Below, one piece after another: positions 3,779 to 24,031 of a stretch of DNA of 44,913 nucleotides. Source of the DNA: Actinomycetes bacterium (GTDB lineage: Bacteria; Actinomycetota; Actinomycetes; JAHEKZ01); NCBI GenBank assembly GCA_024644435.1, contig JAHEKZ010000016.1, positions 1 through 44,913 of the forward strand, written 5' to 3'. The translations under genes were made by a program, and so were the position numbers. Position 1 is the first letter of the stretch, and every line of letters begins with the position of its first letter. Below the pieces are notes generated by a model. That model did no database searches. It saw nothing but the letters and a program-made list of their open reading frames with translations, and had not been told where the DNA came from.

Positions 3779-3841
3779 CGGCAGAGCACGATGGGGAAGG
3801 GCGGTCATGTGTCCGCCTTCTGCAGAGAAGGAGTGAACCGG

Positions 3842-6193
3842 GTGCCGAAGTTCGCGGGGAAGATTGAAGTAGATATCCGAGACTCCGAGCCTGACTGGGC
3901 CCCGTTTCTGGCACCGCAAGCCAAGGCGGGAGCTCCCAACGTTCTGATGATCGCGTGGGACGACGTCGGGTACGGCACGATGGAGTGCTACGGCGGCCCG
4001 GTCAAGACGCCCACGATGAACCGGATAGCCGACATGGGAGTCCGGTTCTCGAACTTCCACACGACTGCCCTGTGCTCACCGACGCGGGCATCCCTGCTGA
4101 CCGGACGGAACGCCACCACGAACGGAATGGCGACGATCGCCGAGTTCGCCTCCGGTTTCCCAGGGATCTCCACGCGCATCCCGTTCGAGAGCGGTTTCAT
4201 CTCCGAGGTCTTGCTGGAGAAGGGCTACAACACCTACTGCATCGGCAAGTGGCACCTCACCCCTGGTGAAGAGTGCAATCTCGCCGCCTACAAGGGGAGG
4301 TGGCCACTCGGACGCGGGTTCGAGCGCTTCTACGGCTGGCTCGGCGGTGAGACGAACTCGTACTACCCCGACCTCGTGCACGACAACCATCCGATCGAAC
4401 CCCCGGCGCGCCCCGAGGACGGTTACCACCTCGCCGATGACATCTCGGACCGCGCCATTGAATTCATCCGCGATGCCAAGGTGATCGACCCCGACAAGCC
4501 GTTCTTCATGTACTTCGCCCCACAGGCAGGTCATGCTCCGCACCTGGTGCCCACAGAGTGGGCCGACAAGTACAAGGGAACGTTCGACGAAGGCTACGAG
4601 GCGATCCGCCCGCAGATCCTCGCGCGGCAGAAGGAGCTGGGACTTCTTCCGGACGACACCGAGCTCTCGGGCATCAACCCCCATGGAGAGCCCGAGCGGC
4701 ACGGCCCCGACGGGCAGGCCTGGCCGATGCTCGACACGGTACGTCCGTGGGCGACGCTGACCCAGGACGAACGGACCATGTTCACGCGGATGGCGGAGGT
4801 CTACGCGGGATACATCTCGTACTACGACGACCGGCTCGGCAGGGTGATCAGCTACCTCGAGGAGTCGGGGCAACTCGACAACACCATCATCGTCGTGATT
4901 TCCGACAACGGTGCCAGCGGCGAGGGTGGCCCCAACGGATCGTTCAACGAATGGCGGTTCTTCAACGGGGTCCCGGATACCGCTGAGACGACGATGCCGC
5001 ACCTGCACGAGCTCGGGACACCGAAGTCGAACAACCACTACAACACCGGCTGGGCCTGGGCATTCGACACGCCTTTCCCCTACTGGAAGCGCTGGGCCGG
5101 CTACGAGGGCGGCACGGCAGACATGTGCATGATTGCCTGGCCCGGGCGGATCACAGCACGGGCAGAGATTCGCGAGCAGTACGTCCACGCCGTGGACGTC
5201 GTTCCGACCCTCTACGAACTGCTCGACATCGAGCCGCCTGAGACGCTCAAGGGCTACCAGCAGTTCCCGATCGAGGGCGAGAGCTTTGCCTCAGCCATCA
5301 CTGCTGCCGATACACCCGCAAAATCTACCCAGTTCTACGCGATGCTCGGTCAGCGGTCGATCTACCACGAGGGATGGCTGGCGTGCACCGTCCACCCACC
5401 GCTCAGCAGCTGGGGGAACTTCGAGAAGGACGAGTGGGAGCTCTACCACCTCGAGACCGACCGGGCTCAGGCCACGAATTTGGCCGCCAGCGAGCCCGCA
5501 CGTCTGGAAGCGATGAAAGCGTTGTGGTTCTACAACGCCGGACTGTACAACGGCCTTCCACTTGATGACCGGTCCGCGATCGAGCAGGTCCTGGCGGAAC
5601 GACCGCGTGCCGCGGAGCCCAGGGACCAGTACATCTTCTACCCGAACTGCGCGGACGTTCCCGAGTCGGCCGGTCCCACGATGCCGGGACGGTCGTACAC
5701 AATCGCCGCCGGTGTGCGGATCGATACGACGAAGGCGCAGGGTGTGCTGTGGGCGGCCGGGGGTGTCCCTGGGGGACACAGCCTCTACATCAAGGGTGGC
5801 CGGCTCAGGTACACCTACAACTGGGTGGGCACTCACCTTCAGGACGTCGTGGCCGAAGCTGACATCTCGCCGGGAGCACATGTTCTCGCCGCGGAGTTCG
5901 CCGTGACCGGTAAGTCAGAAGATCCCATGATGCCGGGGGCCAAGGGCCTCTTGACCCTCTATGTCGATGACGTCGCGGTCGGCAGCGGTGAGATCGTCAC
6001 CCAACCCGGATACTTCTGCCTTACCGGCGACGGGATCTGCGTCGGTCGCGACAGCGCATCGGCCGTGACTCCTGAATATGACGCACCGTTCGAGTTCACT
6101 GGGGGAGAGATCGACAAGGTGATCGTTGACATGTCCGGTGAACACTACGTCGACCACGAGGCCCAAGTGCGCGGGTGGTTCCTCCTTGACTGA
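3842..6193 (+). CDS. Cys-type arylsulfatase (cytoplasmic type, large)
   Basis: A 783-residue sulfatase that hydrolyses sulfate esters. LCSPTRASLLTGR (Cys78, Pro80, Arg82) is the C-x-P-x-R signature whose Cys is oxidised to formylglycine, the catalytic nucleophile. WDDVGYG at residues 39-45 gives the first metal ligands, and GKWHL and ISDNG supply further active-site residues. I start it at GTG 3842 because AGAAGGAG lies 8 nt upstream and the protein then begins VPKFAGKIEVDIRDSEPDW, like other large bacterial arylsulfatases; GTG 3833 and ATG 3791 lack this. No signal peptide is visible. A C-terminal beta-rich domain follows the catalytic part from about residue 600. The maturase gene starts 10 nt after the stop. 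The natural substrate is unknown. Confidence 0.92.
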   Translation: MPKFAGKIEVDIRDSEPDWAPFLAPQAKAGAPNVLMIAWDDVGYGTMECYGGPVKTPTMNRIADMGVRFSNFHTTALCSPTRASLLTGRNATTNGMATIAEFASGFPGISTRIPFESGFISEVLLEKGYNTYCIGKWHLTPGEECNLAAYKGRWPLGRGFERFYGWLGGETNSYYPDLVHDNHPIEPPARPEDGYHLADDISDRAIEFIRDAKVIDPDKPFFMYFAPQAGHAPHLVPTEWADKYKGTFDEGYEAIRPQILARQKELGLLPDDTELSGINPHGEPERHGPDGQAWPMLDTVRPWATLTQDERTMFTRMAEVYAGYISYYDDRLGRVISYLEESGQLDNTIIVVISDNGASGEGGPNGSFNEWRFFNGVPDTAETTMPHLHELGTPKSNNHYNTGWAWAFDTPFPYWKRWAGYEGGTADMCMIAWPGRITARAEIREQYVHAVDVVPTLYELLDIEPPETLKGYQQFPIEGESFASAITAADTPAKSTQFYAMLGQRSIYHEGWLACTVHPPLSSWGNFEKDEWELYHLETDRAQATNLAASEPARLEAMKALWFYNAGLYNGLPLDDRSAIEQVLAERPRAAEPRDQYIFYPNCADVPESAGPTMPGRSYTIAAGVRIDTTKAQGVLWAAGGVPGGHSLYIKGGRLRYTYNWVGTHLQDVVAEADISPGAHVLAAEFAVTGKSEDPMMPGAKGLLTLYVDDVAVGSGEIVTQPGYFCLTGDGICVGRDSASAVTPEYDAPFEFTGGEIDKVIVDMSGEHYVDHEAQVRGWFLLD

Positions 6194-6202
6194 GGTGCCG
6201 CT

Positions 6203-7546
6203 GTGACCTCGTCGGTGGCGGCTCGGGTATTCCATGTGATGTCCAAGCCCACTGGGGCGATCTGCAACCTCGACTGCGAGTACTGCTTCTTCCTGTCGAA
6301 GGAGGAGCTGTACCCGGGCAGCGGGTTCCGGATGGACGAAGAGGTGCACGAGGCCTACATCAGCCAATTGCTCGCTGCCCAGCGATGGGCTGACGAGATC
6401 GTTGTGGCATTCCAGGGCGGCGAACCGACGCTGATGGGCCTGGACTTCTTCCGCCGCACGATCGAACTCGAAAGGCGGTTTGCTGCGAGGGGTCAACTGG
6501 TCCTCAACACGGTTCAGACCAATGCCACGTTGATCGATGACGAGTGGGCGACGTTTTTCAAAGAGCACGACTTTCTCGTCGGTGTCTCGATCGATGGCCC
6601 TCGTGAGATGCACGATGCCTTCCGCGTCGACAAGGGTGGCAAGCCGACTTTCGACCGTGTTGTCACCGGTATCGAGACGCTGCGTCGCCACGAGGTCGAG
6701 TGGAATGCCCTGACCACGATCAACGCGGCCAACCAGGATCACGGGCGTGAGGTCTACACGTTCCTGCGTGACGAGCTCGGAGCCACGTTCGTCCAGCTCA
6801 TTCCGATCGTCGAGCGGGTCACCCCTGAGCTCTTGCCCCTCGCCGAGTCTGGCTGGGGAAGCCGTCGCGGAGAGCGTCCCCTCTACCGCCAGCACGGCGA
6901 CCAGGTGACACACCGCACGGTGGGCGCCGAGCAGTTCGGCCGCTTCATGATCGACATCTTCGAGGAGTGGGCTCGCCGCGATGTGAGCGACGTCTTCGTG
7001 CAGATGTTCGACACCGCCCTCGCACATTGGCTGGGCATGGAACAGGCGGGGATGTGCGTCCATGCCCGAACGTGTGGAGACGCCGTGGCTCTGGAGCACA
7101 ACGGTGATCTCTACTCATGCGACCACTACGTCGAGCCGGAGTACCTGCTGGGCAACATCACCGAGGGTAAGACGCTGCTTCAGCTAGTCGACTCACCACA
7201 GCAACGGGCGTTCGGGCAGGACAAGCTTGACTCCCTCACCTCGTACTGCCGCTCCTGCGACGTGAGGTTCGCCTGCAACGGCGGGTGCCCGAAGGACCGC
7301 TTCATCAGTACGCCCGACGGTCAGCCTGGCCTGCACTACCTCTGCGCCGGCTACCAGTCCTTCTTCCGGCACATCGACCAGCCGATGAAGGTGATGGCAG
7401 GGCTGCTGCGCAGGGGACAGGACGCCACCGGGCTCCGCGACTGGTACGCAAGAACCGATGTCAAACGTGCGCCTGACGACCCCTGCAGCTGCGGGCGGGA
7501 CGCCCCCTGGGGCTCGTGCCATGGAGCGCCAGCCACTACGGCGTGA
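6203..7546 (+). CDS. Radical SAM sulfatase-maturating enzyme (anSME type) with SEC-C-like tail
   Basis: This 447-residue enzyme installs formylglycine in sulfatases without oxygen, using S-adenosylmethionine. The radical SAM cluster ligands are Cys21, Cys25 and Cys28 (CNLDCEYC), and FQGGEPT is the SAM-binding turn. A SPASM domain follows: CGDAVALEHNGDLYSCD, then CRSCDVRFACNGGC, the ligands of two auxiliary [4Fe-4S] clusters. The Asp right after Cys in YSCD fits the proposed catalytic base of characterised anSMEs. The C-terminus, DPCSCGRDAPWGSCHG, has exactly the CxC-x8-CH spacing of a SEC-C zinc motif. It follows the sulfatase by 10 nt on the same strand, so that sulfatase is the obvious substrate. 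The last 11 bases overlap the convergent gene. Confidence 0.92.
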   Translation: MTSSVAARVFHVMSKPTGAICNLDCEYCFFLSKEELYPGSGFRMDEEVHEAYISQLLAAQRWADEIVVAFQGGEPTLMGLDFFRRTIELERRFAARGQLVLNTVQTNATLIDDEWATFFKEHDFLVGVSIDGPREMHDAFRVDKGGKPTFDRVVTGIETLRRHEVEWNALTTINAANQDHGREVYTFLRDELGATFVQLIPIVERVTPELLPLAESGWGSRRGERPLYRQHGDQVTHRTVGAEQFGRFMIDIFEEWARRDVSDVFVQMFDTALAHWLGMEQAGMCVHARTCGDAVALEHNGDLYSCDHYVEPEYLLGNITEGKTLLQLVDSPQQRAFGQDKLDSLTSYCRSCDVRFACNGGCPKDRFISTPDGQPGLHYLCAGYQSFFRHIDQPMKVMAGLLRRGQDATGLRDWYARTDVKRAPDDPCSCGRDAPWGSCHGAPATTA

Positions 7547-9857: not shown

Positions 9858-12293
9858 CTAGGAACGCAGGCGAGATCCTGTGGGGTCATACGGAGGCTCG
9901 GCCAGAATCCGGGCCGGACGCGGTTCGCCGACGATATCGACGATGAGGTCGGGAGGGCTCGATGTCGTGGCGTCGTCGACCAGGCTGATGTCGACATACG
10001 CCAGGGCAAGGCTTTTCCGCACGTGGTGCCCGTAGGCACCGGACGTTGTGAAGCCGACAAGGTCACCATCGAGCCACACGCCCTCGTCGCCGGAGGCATC
10101 CGCATCCACGGCGTCGATGGCTAAGAGCGCCAGGCGACGGTCTGGCGTAGCGGCCCGCGCGGCGAGGGCCGCATCGCGTCCGATGAAGTCCGGCTTGTCG
10201 AACGCGACGAAGCGGTCGAGCCCGGACATGGCAGGCGTATAGGCCTGGGTGAACTCAGCAGACCAGATGCCGTATGCCTTCTCCAGGCGCAGGCTATCGA
10301 TCGCTCGGTCGCCGATGAGTCGCATGCCGAGCGGCTCCCCCGCCTCGCGGAGAGCTGCCAACAGCACCCGCTGCTGTGACGCGGGAACGGTCAGCTCGTA
10401 GCCCAGCTCGCCGGTGAGTGAGATTCGCCCGAGGACGGCCTCGGTACCCGCGACCGTTGCCTCTCGCACGGACAGGAACGGGATGGCGGCATGACTGAGG
10501 TCGATGTCGGCCAGCTGTTGCACGATCTCGCGCGAGCGCGGCCCGGAGAGCGAGAAGCCGCACCAGTCGTCGCAAAGGTTGGTGATCTGCACTGTGCCAT
10601 CTGCCGGGAGGTGCTCGGCGAACCACCGCTGGTGCCACTCCTGCAGGTAGTACGACCCGGTGAGCCAGAAGCGTTCATCAGCGAGCCGGCTCACCGTGAG
10701 GTCGCCCATCAGGTGGCCTCGGTGGTTGAGCATGGGGGCGAGCTTGATCCGTCCGACTGCGGGGAGGGCCGAGGCCATCACGTGGTCGATCCACGCTGAC
10801 GCGCCGGCACCGGCTACCTCGTAGCGCGCGTAGGCGGTGGTCTCGTAGAGCCCGGCTGCGGCACGCGTCGCCTCGACTTCTTCGCCGACTATCTCGTGCG
10901 CGTTGGACCGCTTCCAGGTGAGAGTCTCGTCGAAGGTGGGGCTAGGGGCGTAGTACTGCGGAACCTCAAGGCCGTAGACCACGCTGCAGCGCGCACCGGC
11001 ATCGACCAGGTCGGGGTAGGCCGGGGAGGTCTTGAGGGGACGCCCCGCTGGTAGTTCCTCGTTCGGGTAGGCGATCAGGAAGCGGCGGGCGTAGAACTGC
11101 GAGGTGGTGGCGCGCAGGTACGAGTCGTCGGTCGCGTACGGCCCGAACCGGGTGATGTCCATGCCGAAGACATCGTCACCGGGGTCTCCGTCGACGATCC
11201 AGTTGGCCAGCGCGAGCCCGATGCCTGCACCTTGTGAGAACCCGGCCATGACGCCGCACGCCGACCAGAAGTTGCGGCGTCCGGGCACTGGGCCCACCAA
11301 CGGGTTTCCGTCGGGGGTGAACGTGATGCCGCCGTTGACCCAGCGCTTGATGCCGACGCGTTGCAGGGCGGGGAAGCGTTCGAAGCCGATCGACAGCTCG
11401 GGGGCGATCCGGTCGACCTCTTCGGGGATCAGCTCCATGCCGTAGTCCCAGTCGGGACCGTCAGCCAGCCAGTGCTTGGGGTTCTGCTCGTAGACGCCGA
11501 GCAGGACGCCGTTCTGCTCACGTTGCAGGTAGGTGAAGCCTTCGAGGTCGGTGACGGCCGGCATGGGGCCCGTCAAGGCCGCTACCTCGGGAACGTCCTC
11601 GGTGACCAGAAAGTGGTGCTGCATGGGGATGAGGGGTAGCTCGATACCCACCATGTGGCCGACCTGCCGGGCCCACAGGCCACCGGCGTTCACCACGTGC
11701 TCAGCGCGGATCGGTCCCTTCTCGGTCTCGAGCAGCCACTCTCCGCTCGCCTCCTGGGTGATCGACAGCACTCGGTTGTGCTGGATGACCTCGGCGCCCC
11801 TCTTACGTGCGGCACCTGCATACGCATGCGTGGCACCGTGCGGGTCGAGGTTGCCCTCGTGCGGGTCGAAGAGCGCGCCGGTCAGTCCGGTGGGGTCGAT
11901 GATCGGCACCATCTCGGCTGCTTCGGCCGGCGAGAGAAGGTAGGCGTCCTCGTTGCCCATGTAGCGGTGCCATGCCAGCTCGGACTTCAGCCACTCGGCG
12001 CGTTCCGGTGTCCCCGCGAGCTCGATGCCTCCGGTGAGGTGCAGCCCGGCGCTCTGCCCGCTCTCTTGCTCGACGGTGCGGTACATGCTGATCGTGTAGG
12101 CCTGCAGGCGAGCGATGACCGGGTCGGAGTTGATCGCGTGGAATCCGCCGGCCGCGTGCCAGCTCGAACCTGCCGTGAGCTCGCCACGCTCGATCAGTGC
12201 CACATCGGTGACGCCCCGAGCGGCGAGGTGGTACAGGACGCTGGCGCCCACGATGCCGCCGCCGATCACGACGACGCGGTACTGGTTGTTCAC
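9858..12293 (-). CDS. Dimethylglycine/sarcosine dehydrogenase-like flavoprotein with GcvT domain
   Basis: An 811-residue fusion. Residues 1-370 form a DAO-type FAD domain: VVVIGGGIVGASVLYHLA binds FAD, and GSSWHAAGG places a His at about residue 46, where dimethylglycine dehydrogenases attach FAD covalently. A linker domain follows, then from about residue 430 to the end a GcvT-like aminomethyltransferase module (folate domain plus C-terminal barrel). Enzymes of this plan oxidise N-methylated glycines and pass the one-carbon unit to tetrahydrofolate. GTG 12293 is preceded by GAGG at 6 nt. The gene starts 7 bases after the stop of the sarcosine-oxidase-like gene, so they form an operon. The exact substrate (dimethylglycine, sarcosine or another N-methyl amine) cannot be decided from sequence. 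Confidence 0.88.
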   Translation of the reverse strand: MNNQYRVVVIGGGIVGASVLYHLAARGVTDVALIERGELTAGSSWHAAGGFHAINSDPVIARLQAYTISMYRTVEQESGQSAGLHLTGGIELAGTPERAEWLKSELAWHRYMGNEDAYLLSPAEAAEMVPIIDPTGLTGALFDPHEGNLDPHGATHAYAGAARKRGAEVIQHNRVLSITQEASGEWLLETEKGPIRAEHVVNAGGLWARQVGHMVGIELPLIPMQHHFLVTEDVPEVAALTGPMPAVTDLEGFTYLQREQNGVLLGVYEQNPKHWLADGPDWDYGMELIPEEVDRIAPELSIGFERFPALQRVGIKRWVNGGITFTPDGNPLVGPVPGRRNFWSACGVMAGFSQGAGIGLALANWIVDGDPGDDVFGMDITRFGPYATDDSYLRATTSQFYARRFLIAYPNEELPAGRPLKTSPAYPDLVDAGARCSVVYGLEVPQYYAPSPTFDETLTWKRSNAHEIVGEEVEATRAAAGLYETTAYARYEVAGAGASAWIDHVMASALPAVGRIKLAPMLNHRGHLMGDLTVSRLADERFWLTGSYYLQEWHQRWFAEHLPADGTVQITNLCDDWCGFSLSGPRSREIVQQLADIDLSHAAIPFLSVREATVAGTEAVLGRISLTGELGYELTVPASQQRVLLAALREAGEPLGMRLIGDRAIDSLRLEKAYGIWSAEFTQAYTPAMSGLDRFVAFDKPDFIGRDAALAARAATPDRRLALLAIDAVDADASGDEGVWLDGDLVGFTTSGAYGHHVRKSLALAYVDISLVDDATTSSPPDLIVDIVGEPRPARILAEPPYDPTGSRLRS

Positions 12294-22188: not shown

Positions 22189-22206
22189 ATTGAACGAGCG
22201 TTCAAT
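22189..22206. promoter_or_regulatory. TetR/BetI-type operator ATTGAACG-AG-CGTTCAAT
   Basis: An 18-bp inverted repeat with perfect 8-base arms and a 2-base centre. It covers TTGAAC (22190-22195), which works as a -35 with TAACGT (22213-22218) 17 bases on as the -10. A repressor bound here would block RNA polymerase. The BetI-like regulator encoded by the second gene of this operon is the natural candidate, and BetI sites in other bacteria are similar AT-rich TTGAAC/GTTCAA palindromes. Binding is inferred. Confidence 0.75.
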
Positions 22207-22212
22207 CGCTGC

Positions 22213-22218
22213 TAACGT
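22213..22218 (+). promoter_or_regulatory. -10 element (TAACGT) of the Rieske/TetR operon promoter
   Basis: TAACGT stands 17 bases after TTGAAC. The predicted transcript begins near 22225, downstream of the ATG at 22222, which excludes that ATG as the start and favours GTG 22261. Confidence 0.55.
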
Positions 22219-22260
22219 CCGATGACGTCCACGATCGGACCCTTCGACCAGGGAGACGCC

Positions 22261-23424
22261 GTGCCACCGTCCACGCGCCCCACGCCGACCGACATCTCGG
22301 CCGGCTATGACCCCGACCCGGCTGCGTCCTTCTCGCTGCATGCCGATGCCTACACCGAGCCCTCGTGGTTCGAGCTCGAGCAGCGCGCGGTATTCGGCTC
22401 CACGTGGCAGTGGCTCTGTCACGTGGAGAAGCTTCGTGAGCCAGGTAGCTACGTGTCCGACACCATCGCGGGGATGCCGATCGTGGCCGTGCGTGATGCG
22501 TCAGGTGGGCTGCGGGCGTTCTACAACGTGTGCAAGCACCGTGCCCATCAGCTGCTGGCCGACTCCGGCACCACCAACAGCATCGTCTGCCCGTACCACG
22601 CCTGGACGTACGACCTGACCGGACAGCTCAGCTCGGCGCGAAAGACCAAGCACCTGTCGGCGTTCGACACGTCTCAGGTGTGTCTCGACCAGGTGCAGGT
22701 CGAGGAGTTCGCGGGATTCGTCTACGTCAACCTCGATCCAGATGCGCCGTCGCTGGCGTCGCAGTCGGGCGATCTTGCCGTTGAGATCGCCGAGCGGGCC
22801 CCTGACATCGCTGATCTGAGGTTCGCCCGACGTCTTACCTACGAGATCGACGCGAACTGGAAGGCCGTCATCGACAACTTTCTTGAGTGCTACCACTGCC
22901 ACATCGCACACAAGGACTTCGTCACGCTCGTTGACATGAACACCTACCGGGTGACAACGCACGGCATCTACTCAAGCCACATGGCTGAAGCCGGCAAGAG
23001 TGACAACTCGGCGTACGACGTGTCGGGCGCCACGACCACTGAGCATGCCGTCTGGTGGCTGTGGCCCAACACCTGCCTGCTGCGATACCCAGGTCGGGGA
23101 AACTTCATGGTGTGGCGCATGATTCCTGTTGCACCGAACCGCACACTCGAAATCTTCGATTTCTTCCTCGAGACCGACGAGCCGAACGCGGCCGAAGTCG
23201 AGAGCATCCGCTACATCGACGAGGTACTCCAGAAGGAAGACATTTCACTGGTCGAGAGTGTGCAACGGGGCATGAGCACACCGGCCTTCACACAGGGTCG
23301 CTACGTCTGCGACCCCAAAGGGTCCGGCCTGTCCGAGCATGCTGTTCACCACTTCCACGGGCTTGTGCTCGACGCGTACAAGAACGCGGCGTCGTCTGAG
23401 TCGCGTGGGGCTCCCGGTGAGTAG
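22261..23424 (+). CDS. Rieske non-heme iron oxygenase, quaternary-ammonium type (GbcA/CntA-like)
   Basis: A 387-residue oxygenase alpha subunit. The Rieske [2Fe-2S] ligands are Cys91, His93, Cys110 and His113 (CKHRAH, CPYHAW). The mononuclear iron site is in NFLECYHCHIAHKDF: His212 and His217, with Glu209 where ring-hydroxylating dioxygenases have the bridging Asp. Glu at this place is the hallmark of carnitine monooxygenase CntA and is shared by glycine-betaine monooxygenases, which N-demethylate or cleave quaternary amines. GTG 22261 is preferred because GGGAGA lies just upstream, whereas ATG 22222 sits too close to the -10. The gene overlaps the TetR gene by 8 bases. No ferredoxin reductase partner is in the window. 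The substrate (glycine betaine, carnitine, stachydrine and others) is not fixed. Confidence 0.88.
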   Translation: MPPSTRPTPTDISAGYDPDPAASFSLHADAYTEPSWFELEQRAVFGSTWQWLCHVEKLREPGSYVSDTIAGMPIVAVRDASGGLRAFYNVCKHRAHQLLADSGTTNSIVCPYHAWTYDLTGQLSSARKTKHLSAFDTSQVCLDQVQVEEFAGFVYVNLDPDAPSLASQSGDLAVEIAERAPDIADLRFARRLTYEIDANWKAVIDNFLECYHCHIAHKDFVTLVDMNTYRVTTHGIYSSHMAEAGKSDNSAYDVSGATTTEHAVWWLWPNTCLLRYPGRGNFMVWRMIPVAPNRTLEIFDFFLETDEPNAAEVESIRYIDEVLQKEDISLVESVQRGMSTPAFTQGRYVCDPKGSGLSEHAVHHFHGLVLDAYKNAASSESRGAPGE

Positions 23425-24031
23425 CGCCTCGATCGCACCCACGGCCAGTGAAGCGCCGACAGTCGCGCAACAACCCAAGGAAGAGAAGATCCTTGATGCC
23501 GTGCTCGCTGTTCTTGCTCGTTCCGGAATTTCTGGGGTCAGCATGCGCGCCGTAGCCCGCGAGGCCGGCGTGGCGTTGGGCTTGATGAACTACTACTTCA
23601 CGGACAAGACGTCCCTGATTGCTGCCGCGCTGCGTCGCCTCGGCGAGCAGGACGCCCAGCTGGTCGAGCCGCAAGAAGGTCTTGGACCACGCGAGCAGCT
23701 GGTGAGCTCGCTCCACGGGGTCGTGGACGAGGAGTTCTTGCGGGGGGACTACCTGGCACTTCGTCTGCAGCTGTGGGCCCTGGCTCCGGTCGACCCGTCG
23801 TTCGCCACCGTCAACCAAGAGGCCCAGGAGCGCTACCGCGACGGGCTCACTCAGCTCGTGGGGCGAGCCAGTCCAGGTCTCGAGCCGGCTGAGGCTGCGC
23901 GCCGGGCCGCCGACATCCTCGTGATCCAGAACGGGCTCTGGCTCACCTCGCTGCTGATCGTCGACCGGGCGGCGATCAAACGCGGCGTACTGCGCTGTGA
24001 AGAGATCGCACTGGCACCGCCGCCGCTATAG
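23417..24031 (+). CDS. TetR-family regulator, BetI-like
   Basis: A 204-residue repressor-type protein. The HTH lies at about residues 25-70: EKILDAVLAVLARSGISG, then SMRAVAREAGVALGLMNYYF, the TetR recognition helix ending in the YYF signature, and DKTSLIAAALRRL. The C-terminal half (LALRLQLWALAPVDPSF) resembles the ligand-binding domain of BetI, which senses choline. GTG 23417 is chosen for the 8-base overlap with the Rieske gene stop; GTG 23405 also fits. It likely represses its own operon through the palindrome at 22189-22206, with a quaternary amine or a product as inducer. The 3' end overlaps the convergent gene by 6 bases. Confidence 0.87.
   Translation: MSSASIAPTASEAPTVAQQPKEEKILDAVLAVLARSGISGVSMRAVAREAGVALGLMNYYFTDKTSLIAAALRRLGEQDAQLVEPQEGLGPREQLVSSLHGVVDEEFLRGDYLALRLQLWALAPVDPSFATVNQEAQERYRDGLTQLVGRASPGLEPAEAARRAADILVIQNGLWLTSLLIVDRAAIKRGVLRCEEIALAPPPL

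Follow-up and report, generated by a model that had tools for sequence, protein, structure and literature searches.

A BetI-related TetR repressor with a conserved predicted operator at a group V Rieske oxygenase operon of an actinomycete and its relatives

The described systems closest to the locus considered here are the BetI repressors and the group V Rieske oxygenases. In E. coli, where the repressor gene belongs to betIBA-betT, the bet intergenic region holds ATTGGACGTTCAAT, which we take to be the BetI site. In Ruegeria, the choline-responsive BetI1 binds ATTGACG*CGTCAAT, a palindrome that covers the -35 of betI1-betC (PMC12442346). Among the group V oxygenases, members of group Va act on carnitine, choline or benzalkonium, and those of group Vb, which have Asn at the position of CntA residue 203, are demethylases of glycine betaine or stachydrine (PMC7948474); Phe at this position left CntA active (PMC7948474).

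The window, by which is meant the whole analysed stretch of 44,913 nucleotides from the draft genome of an actinomycete (contig JAHEKZ010000016.1), contains a Rieske oxygenase gene overlapping a TetR gene, behind a promoter that appears to include an operator of BetI character, as well as a distant gene that may belong to the same pathway:

22189..22206, no strand assigned: predicted operator ATTGAACG-AG-CGTTCAAT (perfect arms; the 16-mer recurs 5' of orthologous oxygenase operons)
22190..22195, forward strand: -35-like hexamer TTGAAC, within the operator (direct reading; TANNNT follows the operator in relatives)
22213..22218, forward strand: -10-like hexamer TAACGT (3/6 to TATAAT, fitting TANNNT; not a strict sigma-70 match)
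22250..22255, forward strand: Shine-Dalgarno-like AGGGAG (direct reading; 5 nt before GTG 22261)
22261..23424, forward strand: group V Rieske oxygenase alpha subunit, CntA/YeaW-like, 387 aa (CntA 6y8j match; PF00355 and PF00848)
23417..24031, forward strand: TetR-family repressor with a BetI-type C-terminal domain (PF00440 and PF13977 above gathering; 51-63% identity to the TetR proteins of orthologous loci)
9858..12293, reverse strand: dimethylglycine/sarcosine dehydrogenase-type protein (DAO, FAO_M, GCV_T and GCV_T_C; context, possibly of a shared pathway)

Direct reading of the sequence gives ATTGAACGAGCGTTCAAT at 22189-22206 as a palindrome with perfect 8-base arms and a 2-base centre, AG; it covers TTGAAC, from which TAACGT is separated by a 17-nt spacer, and the oxygenase stop codon (TAG, 23422-23424) lies beyond the GTG start of the TetR gene (23417-23419), resulting in an overlap of 8 bp. 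In each of these points the original prediction was borne out. Palindromy alone is no evidence of function, since composition alone would give the whole window about 1.4 palindromes of this architecture (8-base arms, 2-base gap), and four are present; for those with at least ten A/T, the expectation from window composition is 0.02.

The TetR protein has the helix-turn-helix and helical ligand domain of its family (PF00440, TetR_N, 43.7 bits) and a C-terminal domain of the BetI type (PF13977, 42.2 bits, gathering threshold 27), and shares 28% identity with E. coli BetI. Its description as BetI-like stands for the C-terminal domain and the logic of the promoter, but the BetI equivalog cut-offs are missed (TIGR03384, 66.8 versus 201.3 bits; PRK00767, 57 versus 118 bits), and the protein is best described as a BetI-type relative, predicted to work like a BetI switch, that is not BetI by the curated criterion. 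As in the BetI systems of E. coli and Ruegeria, a repressor with this C-terminal domain is combined with a palindrome whose ATTGA...TCAAT ends cover the -35, and a choline sulfatase lies within the regulon, here in relatives of the unit. Unlike in those systems, the half-sites are set further apart (ATTGAACG-NN-CGTTCAAT) and the repressor gene is paired with a Rieske oxygenase gene rather than with betBA; neither betB nor betA lies beside it, its neighbours being the oxygenase gene and a homoserine dehydrogenase gene.

Orthologous oxygenase loci numbered 81, of which 80 came from a genome-collection search (65-75% identity) and one (L003) from a genome of the same class. A TetR protein 51-63% identical to that of the window is encoded at 34 of them, its gene lying upstream of the oxygenase gene, immediately after it or several genes further on. 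In every one of the 34 a TTGAACGNNCGTTCAA-type site precedes the oxygenase operon, located directly before the oxygenase gene in 32 and, in L067 and L091, before a choline-sulfatase gene that heads the operon. The proposal that the operon includes a cognate TetR gene of BetI type is supported. With the site defined as a TTGAACGNNCGTTCAA-type match with at most three mismatches within 250 bp upstream of the oxygenase gene, it was found at 32 of the 34 loci with the TetR gene versus 7 of the 47 loci where none was detected (Fisher p = 1.8e-13, which overstates the case because the species are related); among these seven, L060 is cut off by the end of its contig, and in L079 the TetR match is only partial. 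Across 689 kb of orthologous loci the 16-mer matches 71 times when up to three mismatches are allowed, compared with 4-21 times for each of four scrambled palindromes, and its low-mismatch matches cluster just upstream of the oxygenase gene. Site holders include Acidimicrobiia, Gaiellaceae, Streptomycetaceae (Streptomyces), Streptosporangiaceae (Microbispora), Nocardioidaceae (Nocardioides) and Intrasporangiaceae.

The promoter is conserved along with the site: TANNNT, with a background of 0.0013 per position, follows 36 of 45 sites, starting 6-9 nt past the 16-mer, and for 21 of them the offset is exactly that of the window (7); this kept spacing indicates that the operator overlies the -35 of a genuine promoter. 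The proposal of an operator inside the promoter is thereby strengthened, and a chance inverted repeat, such as the expected frequency of palindromes in the window would allow, is an extremely improbable explanation, because the exact sequence, with its promoter spacing, is found again ahead of orthologues, along with the TetR gene. Maintenance of the predicted operator at the same place in distant bacteria makes the switch almost certainly real. Paired sites, some 23 bp from each other, occur in many promoters of Streptosporangiaceae and some of Streptomyces; the window has a single one. At L003, L063, L075, L077, L082, L101 and L105, which have two operators at this distance, the ATG lies about 6 nt past the -10, compatible with a leaderless mRNA.

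The switch is not universal among the orthologues. The oxygenases closest by identity (up to 75%), those of Nonomuraea, Planotetraspora and relatives (L032-L047, L049-L054 and L058), are encoded without the TetR gene and without the site, which argues that the oxygenase does not require the predicted switch and that the control of such loci must differ.

The analysis establishes the conservation of the site, of its promoter spacing and of its TetR partner, as well as the protein families. The unit is read, with a probability of about 0.78, as an autoregulated BetI-like operator switch on a quaternary-amine oxygenase operon, opened by a quaternary amine that is probably related to choline. A dimer of the TetR protein encoded by the second gene would bind the palindrome at 22189-22206 over the -35 and block RNA polymerase from transcribing both the oxygenase gene and its own, a negative autoregulation; binding of a quaternary ammonium metabolite to the BetI-type C-terminal domain would free the DNA, the most likely inducer being choline itself or a compound close to it, for instance choline-O-sulfate or glycine betaine; and the oxygenase would then oxidise a quaternary amine with electrons from a donor encoded elsewhere. 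Ruegeria BetI1 follows the same logic, with a choline-responsive repressor on a palindrome over the -35.

The promoter of the window has a weak -10, and a strict sigma-70 scan finds nothing there, because this hexamer fits only TANNNT. Transcription would begin at about 22224-22226, approximately 7 nt after 22218, which places ATG 22222 too close to the -10 to be the start of the oxygenase. GTG 22261, favoured in the original prediction, is the probable start codon on the strength of its position relative to the promoter, the AGGGAG 5 nt upstream and the length of the N-terminus, with 14 residues before a conserved G-Y/G-F motif as with the ATG starts in Microbispora.

The genome scan for further sites that had been proposed along with the original prediction was run on the 2.53 Mb draft genome (97% complete), and no second copy of ATTGAACGNNCGTTCAAT was found at up to three mismatches. 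The operator core at the same tolerance has 57 matches in this genome versus 35 for a reversed control, and a wider regulon in the organism was rejected on this comparison. The best core match other than the window site, a single site with two mismatches on contig C46, was dismissed as an operator because it falls within the reading frame of an MFS-transporter-like protein instead of at a promoter. Base composition is unremarkable; no orthologue was found in three genomes of the same genus, one of them only 73% complete, where the best matches have about 30-32% identity, and horizontal transfer is possible.

The closest solved relative of the oxygenase is the carnitine monooxygenase CntA (6y8j, E=2.2e-74, 38% identity), and E. 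coli YeaW is likewise 38% identical. Homology with these group Va enzymes is full-length and includes the Rieske ligands (C91, H93, C110 and H113), the iron ligands (H212, H217 and D327), the bridging glutamate (E209) and a CxxC pair next to the iron (C210/C213), all near-invariant in the 81 orthologues and characteristic of group V. Residue F207 corresponds to Tyr203 of CntA, the group Va aromatic, and is Phe in 81/81 orthologues. By these residues the oxygenase is assigned to the group V (quaternary-amine) Rieske enzymes, and by its aromatic residue to clade Va. The group Va choline monooxygenases CmoA, CmoB and CmoS, compared at the level of the clade, have the same clade-defining aromatic, and a choline sulfatase belongs to the regulon of the unit's relatives. 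GbcA and Stc2, quaternary-amine Rieske enzymes of group Vb, align with the oxygenase over the Rieske and iron domains, but as matches they are far weaker than CntA, and the window protein has Phe, not Asn, at the substrate contact.

The pocket and the TetR/operator control set the unit apart from CntA and YeaW. Among the carnitine contacts of CntA only Y225 is kept, five of six being changed (N270, Y295, F258, Y315 and F319 to L, F, H, I and L), and H262 and L323 of the window oxygenase are invariant in 81/81 orthologues. These substitutions do not favour carnitine as the substrate, and cleavage of carnitine to trimethylamine and malic semialdehyde, suggested by CntA and YeaW being the best characterised relatives and by carnitine-dehydrogenase-like and BKACE genes in some orthologous operons, is improbable: operons that already include carnitine dehydrogenase and BKACE would have no need for a CntA, and a different contig of the window genome encodes a carnitine-to-betaine set of its own (BKACE, carnitine 3-dehydrogenase and thioesterase, L133 8124-11109). 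The apparent carnitine/gamma-butyrobetaine cluster in which this set is found (L133 7211-13069, contig C20) adds an IclR-type regulator, an acyl-CoA dehydrogenase and an enoyl-CoA hydratase.

Gene context in relatives suggests choline or a related amine. The operator precedes choline-sulfatase genes in five of them (L048, L062, L067, L074 and L091; the L062 protein scores 675 bits versus a curated cut-off of 433) and an FAD/2Fe-2S reductase gene in one (L108:2923). Elsewhere among the orthologous operons there are genes for a short-chain dehydrogenase, BKACE, carnitine-dehydrogenase-like enzymes, an aldehyde dehydrogenase of the BADH/ABALDH type or a GbdR-like regulator, and choline, betaine and carnitine metabolism is the common theme. 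Together with the group V oxygenase, this agrees with the quaternary-amine theme originally proposed. In the window genome itself only weak partial sulfatase matches were found, with no choline sulfatase linked to an operator, and the connection to choline is thus drawn from the relatives; the best match there to the relatives' short-chain dehydrogenase, at 38%, is not assignable as an orthologue. An 800-aa sulfatase gene in the window (3791-7546) adjoins an anaerobic sulfatase-maturase radical SAM gene, and is not a choline sulfatase by the cut-off. Genes for a metallo-beta-lactamase-fold protein and SufC/SufS/SufU-like proteins of iron-sulfur assembly are located just upstream of the oxygenase gene in seven loci of the Acidimicrobiia type (L059, L070, L078, L080, L084, L097 and L104).

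In an alternative reading, the choline sulfatase, the short-chain, aldehyde and carnitine dehydrogenases and BKACE of the relatives would all feed glycine betaine, and demethylation of glycine betaine by a GbcA-like oxygenase would explain why sulfatase, dehydrogenases and BKACE occur in one operon (L109). GbcA is also the best NCBIfam model for the oxygenase, and the window contains the dimethylglycine-dehydrogenase-type gene, at which no operator was found. The GbcA score of 147.9 bits is, however, far under the cut-off of 670, and the oxygenase has Phe at CntA position 203, where betaine and stachydrine demethylases have Asn (PMC7948474), which leaves glycine betaine a plausible but doubtful substrate.

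The inducer could also be something other than a quaternary amine: many TetR proteins respond to unrelated cations or drugs, and this one might do likewise or sense a product formed later in the pathway. The multidrug-binding proteins EbrR and EilR are among the nearest solved sequences or structures, and the TetR protein scores far below the BetI equivalog cut-off. The AlphaFold model of the TetR protein, all-helical with a pLDDT of 90 and built from 33 sequences, has neighbours that include RcdA with TMAO and a Saccharomonospora TetR crystallised with choline, which hint at the ligand; with 388 PDB matches at E<=0.001 the structural neighbourhood is broad, and ligand clues from it are weak. 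A non-amine inducer is nevertheless unlikely, because in distant actinobacterial classes the site stands before genes for choline sulfatases and for group V oxygenases, which form a coherent quaternary-amine set. A choline-related quaternary amine is the preferred inducer.

Rieske oxygenases need an electron donor. Unlike in the case of CntA, no FAD/2Fe-2S reductase of the CntB/GbcB type is encoded near the oxygenase gene or was found in the 97%-complete draft genome, where the relatives' reductase as a query gave only partial matches of 29-33%; the unit is therefore not self-contained, contrary to the original prediction. The only two PF00111 matches in this genome were rejected as CntB-type reductases, one being a RACo-like corrinoid activase (L144) and the other a NuoG-type frame beside NuoF (L138). 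Either another donor serves the oxygenase, or the reductase gene falls in an assembly gap. The RACo-like activase (Fer2 plus ASKHA-type; L144 6372-9133, contig C22) adjoins a methylenetetrahydrofolate-reductase-like gene, a pair, identified from the reading frames, that suggests a corrinoid-dependent methyltransferase system in the same organism.

A literature search covering papers outside subscription returned nothing relevant on a Rieske-TetR or Rieske-choline-sulfatase regulon. Tentatively, the relatives' operons may represent a widespread actinobacterial regulon governed by one BetI-related TetR protein through a distinct operator type, TTGAACGNNCGTTCAA, and comprising choline sulfatase, a group Va oxygenase with a pocket unlike that of CntA, dehydrogenases and a reductase; these would constitute an oxygenase route for choline-O-sulfate, choline or a related quaternary amine that bypasses the classical choline dehydrogenase BetA. 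Through the unit, a branch of the group V Rieske oxygenases that has no assigned substrate is connected with a predicted regulator and its predicted operator. Occurrences of the operator can mark additional pathway genes, and a screen for the quaternary amine that frees the TetR protein from DNA would lead directly to the natural substrate.
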